From assembly GCF_003667315.2 (NCBI RefSeq), contig NZ_RCTZ02000002.1, positions 62,001-126,000 of the forward strand: a stretch of DNA of 64,000 nt. Reading direction: 5' to 3'. The notes under the pieces are model-generated. The model did no database searches, was not told the origin of the DNA, and saw nothing but the letters and a program-made list of their open reading frames with translations. A program made the translations under genes and the position numbers. Source of the stretch: Tropicibacter alexandrii. GTDB lineage: Bacteria > Pseudomonadota > Alphaproteobacteria > Rhodobacterales > Rhodobacteraceae. Of this stretch, positions 9,024 through 55,889 are shown piece after piece (the first letter of the stretch is position 1; every line of letters starts with the position of its first letter).

Positions 9024-9045
9024 AGGATGGGTTGAAACCCATCCT
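9024..9045. repeat. Palindromic repeat family B, variant copy
   Basis: AGGATGGGTT-GA-AACCCATCCT, a 10-bp stem just downstream of the ALDH16 stop codon. It is a diverged copy of the 26-bp GTAGGATGGG palindrome found at five other loci here. It may act as a transcription end signal, but no T-run follows. Confidence 0.65.
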
Positions 9046-26810: not shown

Positions 26811-26843
26811 GTAGGATGGGTTCAGACCCATCCTACTTTTTTT
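26811..26843. terminator. Family B palindrome with T-run: terminator between convergent genes
   Basis: GTAGGATGGGT-TCAG-ACCCATCCTAC (11-bp stem) followed by seven T on the plus strand. It lies between the convergent DJ-1 and DUF4399 genes and is the only family B copy with a clear T-run, so it should stop DJ-1 transcription. Confidence 0.8.
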
Positions 26844-32314: not shown

Positions 32315-33235
32315 TCAGACCTTGAGATTCGGGATGATCTGCTTTTTCCGGGACATGATCCCCGGCAGCACCACGGTATCGCCGGTCACGGTTGCGCCAA
32401 AGCTCTTCTCGGCCACGGTCTTCACCAGGTCGTTGGGGACGAGCAGGGTGGCTTCCTCGTTGAGGATATCGACGACAAACAGCAGGACCTGATCGGCGCC
32501 ATCTTCCTTGGCCACGTCGACCATCGACGCCATCAGGCTGTCCTTGCGGTCCAGCACCAGCTTGGGCGCGGTGGTTTCCAGCACGGAAACGCGGAAGTCC
32601 TTGCCGTCGACGGTGTATTCCTTGGAATCCATCCGCAGCAGTTCGGCATCGGAGAAGGCCGAGACGTCGGACTTGGCTTCGAACATCTGGCTGGCATAGG
32701 CGGACAGGTCGACGCCCAGATCATCGGCCAGCGCATGGGCGATGGCCATGTCTTCCTGCGTCGTGGTGGGCGAACGGAATTCCAGCGTGTCCGACAGGAT
32801 GCAGGACAGCATCGCACCCTTGATCGCCTTGGGGGCCTGCGCCAGATCGTCGCCGATCATCTTGTGCATAATGGTGGCGGTGCAGGCCAGCGGCTCGATC
32901 CGGATGTCGATCGGGCCCTTGGTTTCCAGCCCACCCACCAGCTTGTGGTGGTCGATGATGGCGCGGATGTCGGCGCTGTTGATGTCGGCGGGCAGTTCGG
33001 CGGGGTTGTTGGTGTCGACGATGACGACGGGGGTGCCGGCGTCCACGCCCGAGATGATCTCGGGCTTGTCGAGACCCCAATGGGTCAGGACAAAGGCGGC
33101 TTCGGTATTGGGTTCGCCCAGCAGGACGGGCTTGGCGGTTTCGCCTTTGATTTCGTTCAGGTACCAAGCCCAGATGATGGGCGAGCCGGTGGAATCGGTG
33201 TCTGGCGACTTGTGGCCGAAAACGAGGGTGGTCAT
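32315..33235 (-). CDS. ppaC: Manganese-dependent inorganic pyrophosphatase (family II)
   Basis: Hydrolyses pyrophosphate and so pulls biosynthetic reactions forward. 306 residues of the DHH family: FGHKSPDTDS at residues 7-16, VDTNN near 75, the DHHK motif (IIDHHKLVGG) near 95 and the C-terminal substrate loop SRKKQIIP. Family II enzymes need Mn or Co, in line with the Mn-type importer elsewhere in the window. It is preceded by the family D palindrome cluster. Confidence 0.94.
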   Translation of the reverse strand: MTTLVFGHKSPDTDSTGSPIIWAWYLNEIKGETAKPVLLGEPNTEAAFVLTHWGLDKPEIISGVDAGTPVVIVDTNNPAELPADINSADIRAIIDHHKLVGGLETKGPIDIRIEPLACTATIMHKMIGDDLAQAPKAIKGAMLSCILSDTLEFRSPTTTQEDMAIAHALADDLGVDLSAYASQMFEAKSDVSAFSDAELLRMDSKEYTVDGKDFRVSVLETTAPKLVLDRKDSLMASMVDVAKEDGADQVLLFVVDILNEEATLLVPNDLVKTVAEKSFGATVTGDTVVLPGIMSRKKQIIPNLKV

Positions 33236-33323
33236 GCGGGAATCCTCTGTCTGAAAGGCTGTTCGCGCGCGCTATAGCCGCGCGCGCGCCGCTTGTCACC
33301 CCGGGTGCGACCTTGAGGCCGGG

Positions 33324-33418
33324 CAAGGCCCTTCGAAGGGCCTTGGATCAAGCGCATTGCAATGCGCTTGTGACGCATCTTCGAAGATGCGTGTCCCAAG
33401 GCGCTTCGAAGCGCCTTG
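33324..33418. repeat. Cluster of four tandem 20-22 bp palindromes (family D)
   Basis: Four perfect inverted repeats, spaced by 2-4 bases: 33324-33345 (CAAGGCCCTTC and its mirror), 33349-33370 (CAAGCGCATTG), 33373-33392 (ACGCATCTTC) and 33397-33418 (CAAGGCGCTTC). Arms differ between units but each is fully self-complementary, and three have a CTTCGAAG core. The cluster starts 6 bases after the stop codon of the AlkB-like gene in its direction. It could be a run of 3' RNA hairpins or protein sites. Confidence 0.85.
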
Positions 33419-33423
33419 CGCGC

Positions 33424-34554
33424 CTAATTCGGGGCGGGGTGCCGCGCCTTGTTGTAGGGGTGCCAATCGGTGATCTCCGGGTAATAGCGTTGCCGCCACG
33501 CCCGGACGCGTGGGTTCATGATGCGCCTCCACAGCGGCGGGATCATCGCCGCCAGCGCCATCAAAGGGTAGCCGTAGGGCAGTTGCGGGGCCTCATCCTC
33601 GGCATAGGTCTGGAGCAGCGGAAAGCGACGGTCCGGTTTGTAATGGTGGTCCGAATGCCGCTGCAGGTTGATCATCAGCCAGTTGGTCGCGGTGTGGCTG
33701 GCATTCCAGCTGTGACGCGGCAACACGCGTTCGTATTTGCCATCGCCCAGATATTTCCGCGTCAGGCCGTAATGTTCGACATAGTTGACCACCTCCAGTT
33801 GCCAGATGGCAACGCCGGCCTGCAACATGAACAGCCCCAGCCCCGCCCAACCGGACAGTGCCAGCGCCAGCGCCAGCATGGCGCCTTGCAGAGCGAGATA
33901 GGTCCAGAACGGATTGCGGCGGTCCCACCACGGGCGGCCCTTCCGGGCCAGCATCTCGCGCTCGGCCCGGAAGGACGACAGCAGGCTTTGCCGCAGCACA
34001 CGAGGATAAAACCGGTGGAACCCCTCGTTGTAGCGCGCCGTGACGGGGTCGCGGGGCGTGCCCACATGGCGGTGATGCACCAGAAGATGCTCGGACCGGA
34101 AATGTGAATAAAGCACCATGGCGAGCAGCAGGTCGCCGAGCCTGCGCTCGGCCCGGTTGCGCTGGTGCAGCAGTTCGTGGGCATAGACGATGCCCACGGT
34201 GCCGGTCATCACCCCGGTCCCGAACACCACGCCAAAGGTTTCCCAGCCATTCAGCCCGGCGCGCGGCACATACCAGACCAGACCGAACAGGGTGGCCGCT
34301 TGCAGCGGCACCCAGAGTTGCGTCAGCAGCTTGTACCAGAACAGCTGGTCCTCGGAGGTGTCCGGATCGGCGTTTTCGCCATTCAACCCGATGGCAAAGT
34401 CGATGGCGGTGAACAGGTACCACGTACACAGCGGCGTCAGCAGCACCCACCAGTCGCCCCAAAGCGCCCCGATCCAGACCAGCGGGACGAGGATGAACGA
34501 CAAGAAGAACGGGGCGGCTGCGGACAGCCGGGCGATGTGCTGGGCGGGGATCAT
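33424..34554 (-). CDS. alkB: AlkB-type membrane alkane/fatty acyl hydroxylase
   Basis: Integral-membrane non-haem di-iron monooxygenase, 376 residues. The histidine boxes fit alkane 1-monooxygenase: HELLHQ, EHLLVHHRHVGTPRDP, NYVEHYGLTR and LQRHSDHHYKPDRRFP. Several hydrophobic spans lie near the N-terminus. Box 1 ends in Gln where alkane hydroxylases usually have Lys. No rubredoxin gene adjoins it, so electrons must come from elsewhere. The natural substrate may be a medium-chain alkane, but other terminal methyl groups are possible. Confidence 0.87.
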   Translation of the reverse strand: MIPAQHIARLSAAAPFFLSFILVPLVWIGALWGDWWVLLTPLCTWYLFTAIDFAIGLNGENADPDTSEDQLFWYKLLTQLWVPLQAATLFGLVWYVPRAGLNGWETFGVVFGTGVMTGTVGIVYAHELLHQRNRAERRLGDLLLAMVLYSHFRSEHLLVHHRHVGTPRDPVTARYNEGFHRFYPRVLRQSLLSSFRAEREMLARKGRPWWDRRNPFWTYLALQGAMLALALALSGWAGLGLFMLQAGVAIWQLEVVNYVEHYGLTRKYLGDGKYERVLPRHSWNASHTATNWLMINLQRHSDHHYKPDRRFPLLQTYAEDEAPQLPYGYPLMALAAMIPPLWRRIMNPRVRAWRQRYYPEITDWHPYNKARHPAPN

Positions 34555-37100: not shown

Positions 37101-38212
37101 CCTCTGCCCCACGCGGCCCGCTGGAGGGCGTGAAGGTCATCGAACTGGCCCGCATTCTTGCGGGCCCGTTTGCCGGTCAGACATTGGCCGATCTGGGGGC
37201 AGAAGTCCTCAAGATCGAGGCCGAGGCGGGCGATGACACCCGCCAATGGGGGCCACCTTTCATCGAGCATGACGGTCAGCGGACGGCGGCCTATTTCCAT
37301 TCCTGCAACCGGGGCAAGGCGTCGGAGGTGGTCAACATCGCAACCGAGGCCGGGCAGGCGCGGCTGCGCGAGTTGGTGGCGGATGCGGATGTGCTGATCG
37401 AGAATTTCAAGGTCGGCGGGCTGGCGAAATACGGGCTGGATTATGCCTCGCTCAGCGCGGTGAACCCGCGGCTGATCTATTGCTCGATCACCGGTTTCGG
37501 GCAGGACGGGCCTTATGCGCATCGCGCCGGGTACGACTATATCATCCAAGGCATGTCCGGTTTCATGTCGATCACGGGCGACCCGGATGGCCAGCCGCAG
37601 CGCGCGGGCGTGGCGATCACCGACCTGTTCACGGGTCTCTATTCGGTCAACGGCATCCTCTCGGCGCTGTACCAGCGCGAGCGGACGGGCAAAGGCCAGC
37701 ATGTCGACATGGCGCTGCTGGATTGCGCGGTGGCGGCGATGGCCAATCAGGCGCTGAATTACCTGAGCACCGGCACGCCGCCGGGACGGACGGGGAATTA
37801 TCACCCGAACCTGACGCCCTATCAGGTCTTCGACTGTGCGGACGGCCATATCATCATTGCCACGGGCAATGACGCGCAATACCGGCGGCTATGTGGGCTT
37901 TTGGGGCTGGAGGAGATGGCCGAAGCGCCGGAATTCCTGCGGAATGCAGACCGCGTGGCCAATCGCGAAGAGATGATCCGCCGCCTGACTGAGGCGACCT
38001 TGCAGCGGACCAAGGCCGAGTTGCTGGCCGCCTGCGAGGCGCAGGGCGTGCCCGCCGGGCCGATCAACGACATGGCCGAGGTGTTTGCCGACCCGCAGGT
38101 CGTGGCGCGGGGGATGCAGATCGCTCCGGGCGGCGTTCCGGGGGTGCGGACACCGATCCGCTTTTCGGATGCGGAACTGGTTCTGGATCGGCCCGCCCCG
38201 AAACTTGGGTAG
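37097..38212 (+). CDS. CaiB/BaiF (class III) CoA-transferase
   Basis: 371 residues of the CoA-transferase III family. Typical parts are GVKVIELARILAGPFAGQTLADLGAEVLKIE, the NFKVGGLAKYGLDY segment and the catalytic Asp in GYDYIIQGMSG. Acts on CoA esters of carboxylic acids; the acid is unknown because no pathway neighbour is present. The TAG stop codon is part of a family B palindrome. Confidence 0.88.
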   Translation: MTSAPRGPLEGVKVIELARILAGPFAGQTLADLGAEVLKIEAEAGDDTRQWGPPFIEHDGQRTAAYFHSCNRGKASEVVNIATEAGQARLRELVADADVLIENFKVGGLAKYGLDYASLSAVNPRLIYCSITGFGQDGPYAHRAGYDYIIQGMSGFMSITGDPDGQPQRAGVAITDLFTGLYSVNGILSALYQRERTGKGQHVDMALLDCAVAAMANQALNYLSTGTPPGRTGNYHPNLTPYQVFDCADGHIIIATGNDAQYRRLCGLLGLEEMAEAPEFLRNADRVANREEMIRRLTEATLQRTKAELLAACEAQGVPAGPINDMAEVFADPQVVARGMQIAPGGVPGVRTPIRFSDAELVLDRPAPKLG

Positions 38213-38234
38213 GATGGGTGATCACCCATCCTAC
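38209..38234. repeat. Family B palindrome, perfect 26-bp copy, overlapping a stop codon
   Basis: GTAGGATGGGTGA followed by its exact mirror. The TAG stop codon of the CoA-transferase gene is bases 2-4 of the element. It lies between convergent genes, so it may end transcription from both sides. Confidence 0.85.
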
Positions 38235-40945: not shown

Positions 40946-41073
40946 CAAAAATCTTCGAAGATTTTTGGCAAATTCCTTTCAAGGAATTTGATCGCGCAAG
41001 CTGCCAGCCAGAGCGCCCTTTTTTATGTCCCGACTTCGTCGCGCGCGCCCTCAAAATTCTTCGAAGAATTTTG
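40946..41073. repeat. Second palindrome cluster (family D), three units
   Basis: 40946-40967 (CAAAAATCTTC and mirror, perfect 22 bp), 40969-40990 (CAAATTCCTT with a 2-base TC centre, 10-bp arms) and 41052-41073 (CAAAATTCTTC and mirror, perfect 22 bp). The last unit starts 5 bases after the stop codon of the histidine phosphatase gene in its direction. Same format as 33324-33418 but AT-rich arms. The 61 bases between the second and third units show no gene. Confidence 0.82.
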
Positions 41074-46060: not shown

Positions 46061-46086
46061 GTAGGATGGGTGATCACCCATCCTAC
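46061..46086. repeat. Family B palindrome, perfect 26-bp copy
   Basis: GTAGGATGGGTGA and mirror between the convergent dctP and rsmD genes. It ends directly at the rsmD stop codon. Confidence 0.85.
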
Positions 46087-51278: not shown

Positions 51279-51304
51279 GTAGGATGGGTGATCACCCATC
51301 CTAC
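51279..51304. repeat. Family B palindrome, perfect 26-bp copy
   Basis: GTAGGATGGGTGA and mirror, between the hlyD stop codon and the start of the RidA gene (both minus strand). It is the only family B copy between two genes that point the same way on the minus strand. Confidence 0.85.
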
Positions 51305-55863: not shown

Positions 55864-55889
55864 GTAGGATGGGTGATCACCCATCCTAC
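55864..55889. repeat. Family B palindrome, perfect 26-bp copy
   Basis: GTAGGATGGGTGA and mirror, 8 bases after the mlaC stop codon, between convergent mlaC and PBP1A. Confidence 0.85.

Follow-up and report, generated by a model that had tools for sequence, protein, structure and literature searches.

What keeps four neighbouring palindromes perfectly symmetric while their arms differ, and what could such an array do between two genes? These questions are raised by positions 33324-33418 of the 64,000-nucleotide stretch of the Tropicibacter alexandrii genome analysed here (hereafter designated the window). As described in the initial annotation, the element consists of four perfect palindromes of 22, 22, 20, and 22 bp, each identical to its own reverse complement and separated by gaps of 3, 2, and 4 nt; the CTTCGAAG core in three of the four and the CAAG start and CTTG end in three of the four were likewise found. 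The element and the features around it are as follows.

33324-33418, no strand assigned: whole 95-bp four-hairpin element (BLAST and covariance model R1)
33324-33345, no strand assigned: hairpin 1, CAAGGCCCTTCGAAGGGCCTTG, perfect self-complement in the outer slot of the family
33349-33370, no strand assigned: hairpin 2 (AAGCG type, TTGCAA core), perfect self-complement in an inner slot
33373-33392, no strand assigned: hairpin 3 (ACGC type, 20 bp), perfect self-complement in an inner slot
33397-33418, no strand assigned: hairpin 4 (outer), perfect self-complement, closest to the upstream stop codon
33424-34554, minus strand: upstream gene, membrane fatty-acid desaturase/alkane hydroxylase-like (PF00487, FA_desaturase, E 2.4e-38)
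32315-33235, minus strand: downstream gene ppaC, manganese-dependent inorganic pyrophosphatase (NF003877 above cut-off; PF01368, PF02833)
33271-33299, minus strand: promoter-like site (GTGACA and TATAGC, 17 nt apart) for ppaC, lying between this gene and the element, read by eye
40946-41073, no strand assigned: AT-rich CAAA...TTTG cousin hairpins, an adjacent pair at 40946-40990 and a third at 41052-41073, from a palindrome search

The upstream gene ends with a TAG codon on the minus strand (33424-33426), and 5 bases separate this stop from the nearest palindrome. It matches the Pfam family given above; for the earlier label "AlkB-type" there was no NCBIfam match; the naming of the downstream gene as ppaC was borne out by NF003877. 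A GTGACA box with a CTATAAG- or CTAGAAG-like site was present in 9/9 ppaC upstream regions inspected by eye rather than by a scan (nine regions out of 30 loci), and the assignment as a promoter is accordingly a putative one. In the relatives G001, G003, and G026, inspection by eye of the alkB-ppaC site revealed two hairpins, not four; those of G001 and G026 are A+T-rich adjacent pairs similar to the window cousin, and one of the two in G003 shares its arm with hairpin 4.

The window contained 11 perfect palindromes of at least 20 bp, whereas 60 order-2 Markov shuffles gave 0.25 on average; four of the 11 belong to the element, two to the AT-rich cousin, and the remaining five to neither. The lone cousin hairpin lies 61 bases beyond the adjacent pair. 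As a separate observation, four identical 26-bp palindromes, GTAGGATGGGTGATCACCCATCCTAC, occur at 38209-38234, 46061-46086, 51279-51304, and 55864-55889, with looped variants at 26811-26836 and 9024-9045, several of them between convergent genes; these belong to a GTAG-type REP-like family, a label taken from PMC3733652, though the own genome has no Y1_Tnp match.

The excess extends beyond the window, since the pattern CAAGN4TTCGAAN4CTTG occurs at 121 places in the own genome and its reversed control at none. BLAST with the window element gave 96 matches in the same genome (both strands, partial matches counted), and 45 loci were parsed into 44 clusters of at least two palindromes. From 30 regular four-palindrome copies, which were aligned, covariance model R1 was built; it scores the window element, itself one of the 30, at 117.1 bits. 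The original observation of the four hairpins was thus right and bigger than first noted. In Rfam 15, no match in the window reached its gathering cut-off, and the sole match with E up to 1 was a weak one to the Caulobacter sRNA CC3552 (RF01529; E 0.32, 19.7 bits where the gathering score is 50). Together with the titles and abstract openings of the literature searched, among which no description of a four-hairpin element was found, this agrees with the earlier remark that its author knew of no named family with such a form.

The frame of the element is nearly fixed. In a strict collection from the own genome and relatives, 131 of 135 elements measured 93-96 bp, and the hairpin centres were spaced at about 25/23/25, mostly exactly or one off; some own copies missing one inner palindrome are still 94-95 bp long. 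A relaxed collection, which overlaps the strict one and contains a few false copies, comprised 201 copies, 193 of them at a score of at least 29. Outer hairpins have the form CAAG-N4-TTCGAA-N4-CTTG, and inner ones are of the AAGCG type (22 bp) or the ACGC type (20 bp), with cores mostly TTCGAA or TTGCAA. The arm of hairpin 4, AAGGCGCT, is the commonest outer arm of the own genome (32 of the 80 outer arms in 40 own copies). Two five-hairpin versions with near-regular spacing were seen; one, L360, lies upstream of trpB in G345 and the other, L058, in the own genome. GATC was found in the linkers or flanks of 55/193 elements against 8.9 expected, and at the window it is formed by the linker 33346-33348 and the next base; since the sequence CTTG-GATC-CAAG is palindromic too, adjacent arms could form pairs in an alternative register.

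Within this frame, the arms vary and their pairing persists. The 193 copies bear 59 distinct outer and 92 distinct inner arms, and all eight stem positions were perfect in 361/382 outer and 342/374 inner even-centred hairpins; Watson-Crick pairing per stem position was 98.7-100% for the outer and 97.3-99.2% for the inner hairpins, with 84% at the inner centre pair. Among the 30 aligned own copies, 23 pairs had changed on both sides, and the covariation score was 0.288 against 0.081 in shuffles, none of 500 being as high, both counts including a trial closing stem that later failed. The failed candidate, a GGGG/CCCC stem around the four hairpins, had 1.90 of 4 positions paired against 1.85 when shuffled and reflects composition only. 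The claim that pairing, not sequence, is kept therefore stands in so far as pairing survives changes of arm, both among copies and at orthologous sites, but the CAAG/CTTG ends and the TTCGAA core are conserved as well.

Conserved CAAG and TTCGAA around four variable positions, in a unit of 22 bp, might also be expected of a series of operators recognised by a single dimeric DNA-binding protein with the half-site CAAG-N4-TTC. We regard this as very improbable. The variable outer positions show self-complementarity of 98.7-100%, whereas an operator has no need of it where the protein makes no contact, 16% of the inner hairpins are non-symmetric at the centre, and the sites follow stop codons instead of promoters, 6/191 being divergent. 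For the first two reasons, the protein-binding array on plain double-stranded DNA, one of the possibilities raised initially, is unlikely. Two elements of G032 (L065 and L069) have the same four-hairpin architecture with other, A+T-richer arms and odd-length or non-complementary loops, which suggests that the folded single strand, not the symmetric double strand, is what is kept; they perhaps represent a separate branch that model R1 undercounts.

The two outer hairpins of one element are almost never alike. Identical outer arms were found in 1 of the 142 copies (of 193) that bear a genome label, whereas shuffling of outer arms within genomes gave 23.5 as the expected number and 10 as the minimum of 2000 shuffles. 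The own genome gave 0/40 (8.9 expected); one genome had no deficit (1/8, 1.0 expected), and most small sets are uninformative alone. The deficit may come partly from the descent of two slot lineages. In a folding control in which hairpin 4 was copied from hairpin 1, the median margin by which other folds surpass local folding rose from 7.1 to 21.5 kcal/mol. The outer arms might be kept different because the hairpins then fold locally, or because direct repeats, with their risk of deletion, are thereby avoided.

The position of the copies points to the ends of genes. Contexts of the 201 copies, with genes called by a purpose-built small gene finder retrained on named loci and not taken from annotation, were tandem for 99, convergent for 86, divergent for 6, and at an edge for 10, so that 185 of the 191 copies with both neighbours called follow a stop codon, as the single window copy had led the initial annotation to suppose. 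Of the two outcomes that the annotation named as refuting its observation, palindromes no commoner than in shuffled sequence and clusters unrelated to gene ends, neither occurred. Compared with the proportion of intergenic bp that is divergent in the own sample (464 kb), divergent copies are strongly depleted (p 1e-20); intergenic spaces of at least 40 bp in this sample numbered 167 tandem, 69 divergent, and 32 convergent. The nearest stop codon lies at a median of 10 nt and within 15 nt in 122/192 copies, and 51 of the 84 convergent copies are within 30 nt of both stops. In tandem copies, the median distance is 12.5 nt to the upstream stop and 78.5 nt to the next start, this start being less than 40 nt away in 23/94 according to the starts called in this analysis, which makes full termination hard to square with the array. 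The 3' flank is C-rich, with C making up 55-69% at every one of its first five positions, and on the 5' side there is a corresponding richness in G; no T-tract was found 3' of the elements, nor at the window copy. Other convergent spaces of the own sample hold GTAG-type hairpins, other G+C-rich hairpins, or none, as if the hairpin types were interchangeable there.

The distribution of the family among genomes is patchy. Model R1 detected the element in 44 of 394 genomes of the bacterial family, the own genome included, and, in a class-wide draw, in 1 of 385, which was the own genome; by the same model, the same-genus genome G001 has no element. A pattern scan of 84,980 species gave at least 94 stretches, and the matches listed were all from Rhodobacteraceae/Paracoccaceae or unplaced alphaproteobacterial bins, with Roseovarius, Marivita, Pseudoponticoccus, Maliponia, Nioella, Ruegeria, Rhodovulum, Shimia, and others among the genera. 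Distant versions are undercounted in these figures because R1 was built from own copies and the large searches used stricter filters. On a tree of 30 genomes built from the first two codon positions of trpB, with good support for 4 of its 27 inner branches, presence of the element needs 9 changes and shows no clustering. A single clade of element genomes is thereby rejected, and the 9 changes are compatible with repeated wholesale loss or gain.

At orthologous sites, the elements nevertheless recur. In 32 element pairs with both neighbouring proteins matching, 770 stem pairs were the same, 169 showed two-sided changes, and 37 were one-sided or mismatched, a tally that is descriptive because many pairs are from the trpB site and hence non-independent, pairs with reversed inner order are counted, and two of the 32 are self-pairs arising from overlapping artefacts of the relaxed set (L064 and L323). 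Hairpin centres differed in 49/122 cases and positions within linkers of equal length in 64/93; the tally leaves out 6 slots and the 53 linkers whose lengths were unequal. The inner hairpin order is reversed at some orthologous sites. Upstream of trpB, a site chosen since it had already been seen in several element genomes, at least two hairpins were present in 16 of 20 element genomes (20 of the 44 being examined), compared with 0/10 genomes without the element, in none of which was there any hairpin at this site. The 20 divide into 14 with at least three hairpins, 2 with two, and 4 with one or none; six of them (G026, G036, G211, G278, G370, and G393) were known beforehand to have a trpB element, and the other 14 gave at least two hairpins in 10. 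In the own genome, trpB has a different neighbour, and at a distance of about 1.2 kb an element follows the gene homologous to the small upstream one. Since positions are common to different genera while the arms differ, the elements are largely inherited in place. The same outer arm recurs at a frequency of 0.195 within and 0.064 between genomes, and the same inner arm at 0.126 and 0.039, so that spread or conversion within genomes also takes place.

The last observation bears on the mobile-palindrome system proposed in the initial annotation. A REP-like repeat might be spread by a candidate transposase or by gene conversion, landing harmlessly after stop codons, with distinct outer arms that avoid direct-repeat deletion. 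Indeed, the genome-specific outer arms, the patchy presence, and the reversed inner order are all in line with such a repeat; many dispersed intergenic copies were found in convergent and tandem spaces, a placement also typical of REPs according to PMC3733652. Against it, positions are kept across genera with changed arms, Y1_Tnp (PF01797), the domain looked for as a sign of a RAYT, was not found in the own genome (G000) and occurred in 2/15 element genomes and 2/15 others, and neither REP tag is in excess in the linkers and 12-nt flanks (CGTC in 33/193 with 44.1 expected; GTAG in 11/193 with 16.7 expected). Flanking direct repeats of 3-5 nt showed no excess, those of at least 6 nt being present in 5/193 elements (1.9 expected), and carriage by plasmid or phage was rejected on one half-length plasmid match (Ponticoccus alexandrii) and no phage match. 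We consequently reject a REP/RAYT origin and hold the broader mobile reading to be rather unlikely, the genome-specific arm vocabularies being the part of the earlier idea that stands.

REP/PU elements and BIMEs (GTAG- or CGTC-tagged), as described in PMC3733652, resemble the element in being short dispersed palindromes of convergent and tandem spaces, often grouped and patchy between species; the element differs in its fixed 95-bp four-hairpin frame, its covarying arms, and the lack of a tag excess, of a G-U excess, and of a Y1 transposase match in its own genome. To REPs near stop codons that slow translation (PMC12306157), it is alike by position alone, many copies lying within 15 nt of the stop, but with four hairpins, not one. 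We class the family as a variant among the dispersed intergenic palindromes and outside the REPs.

In tandem copies, mismatches on the mRNA strand were GU 7, AC 10, and other 32 among 2772 pairs, and in a stricter set GU 1, AC 9, and other 12; from the direction of the AC:GU ratio, 9 to 1 (strict) or 10 to 7 (relaxed), nothing is drawn. Control hairpins, drawn from the same sequences downstream of 1026 stop codons, gave GU 49, AC 16, other 56, and perfect 108, a significant difference in GU versus AC (Fisher, p 0.017), although the one-mismatch rule for control hairpins differs from the rule behind the 2772 pairs. When element-like hairpins were taken under the control rule (GU 0, AC 1, other 16, perfect 111), the difference in GU among mismatches had a p of 0.0006. 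G-T stem pairs are taken as a sign that REPs act as RNA in PMC3733652, and the element, with the counts above, lacks this sign. Ordinary 3' hairpins thus bear the mark of RNA selection and the element is without it. RNA selection alone, which should leave G-U pairs, does not account for the perfect pairing, and we infer that symmetry is renewed at the DNA level.

In template switching, one arm is copied from the other, so that two-sided changes arise without intermediates. Upkeep of RNA hairpins by this process is proposed in PMC8794818, and arm homogenisation and spacer inversion are described in PMC8604942. The likeness to the hairpins treated there lies in two-sided changes, few intermediates, changed centres, and reversed inner order at some sites; those hairpins belong to RNA genes and coding inverted repeats, and the present ones to a dispersed intergenic family. 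As a pattern, not as a traced event, the four-hairpin data appear to fit template-switch upkeep.

The same wobble data could be explained by an element that acts as DNA, the arrays forming single-stranded or cruciform hairpins that serve a nucleoid, gyrase-like, or repair factor in need of strict Watson-Crick symmetry, or relieving supercoils between converging genes. Transcription torsion collects at gene 3' ends. Symmetry on both strands, Watson-Crick pairing of 97-100% at every stem position with just 84% at the inner centre, no G-U excess on the mRNA strand, and the enrichment of GATC all speak for this reading, which we nevertheless think unlikely; it is without a known factor, and the close placement by stop codons fits an mRNA role better. 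The hairpin-cutting SbcD, above cut-off in 25/394 genomes, was absent from all 44 element genomes and present in 25/350 others (p 0.094, assuming the same 394 genomes in the element and SbcD draws; a first look covered 48 genomes), but it is rare anyway. As a cause of the patchiness, SbcD was set aside and kept as a lead.

The reading that we prefer, at a probability of roughly 0.5, is an array of hairpins at mRNA 3' ends that is for the most part inherited and would regain its symmetry through a process acting on DNA. Transcripts of the upstream gene would continue into four strong, separately folding hairpins about 10 nt past the stop codon; these may mark and guard the mRNA 3' end as a barrier to 3'-to-5' exonucleases, and the array may give termination or attenuation ahead of the next promoter. 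Because it is symmetric, an array between convergent genes could serve both mRNAs. The strict symmetry would be renewed in DNA, most likely by template-switch copying of arm from arm. The multi-hairpin 3' RNA element of the initial annotation is thus retained for its link to gene 3' ends, but strict Watson-Crick pairing without wobble excess misfits selection on RNA alone. Intrinsic (Rho-independent) terminators are comparable as strong G+C-rich hairpins after stops and between convergent genes; the element differs in lacking a T-tract, having four hairpins, and being strictly symmetric, most centres included.

Equilibrium folding would count against this 3'-end array. For RNA at 25 C, the four-hairpin form is less stable than alternative folds by a median of 7.1 kcal/mol and comes within 1 kcal of the best in just 8/193 copies. 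The RNA fold of the window copy, with a z of -8.44, speaks for the array, but the best fold of this copy joins the two outer palindromes to each other. These predicted folds, with the outer palindromes pairing together, and the C-rich flank without a T-tract are points against the array, and its all-or-none spread over genomes is odd for a simple terminator. Tentatively, the family may also be viewed as an interspersed element defined by shape, in which a fixed four-hairpin frame, arms rewritten by template switching, and outer hairpins that must differ go together with a presence, all or none in each genome, as if it needed a trans-acting factor reading folded arrays at gene ends.

The family bears on an old puzzle, namely how RNA stems change on both sides without a broken intermediate. 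It offers hundreds of short natural replicates, orthologous and paralogous, some of them from named marine isolates, with a built-in control in the ordinary 3' hairpins that carry G-U pairs, and would thereby allow a clean test between selection and template switching. It also bears on how mRNAs are ended and protected in G+C-rich alphaproteobacteria without T-tracts.
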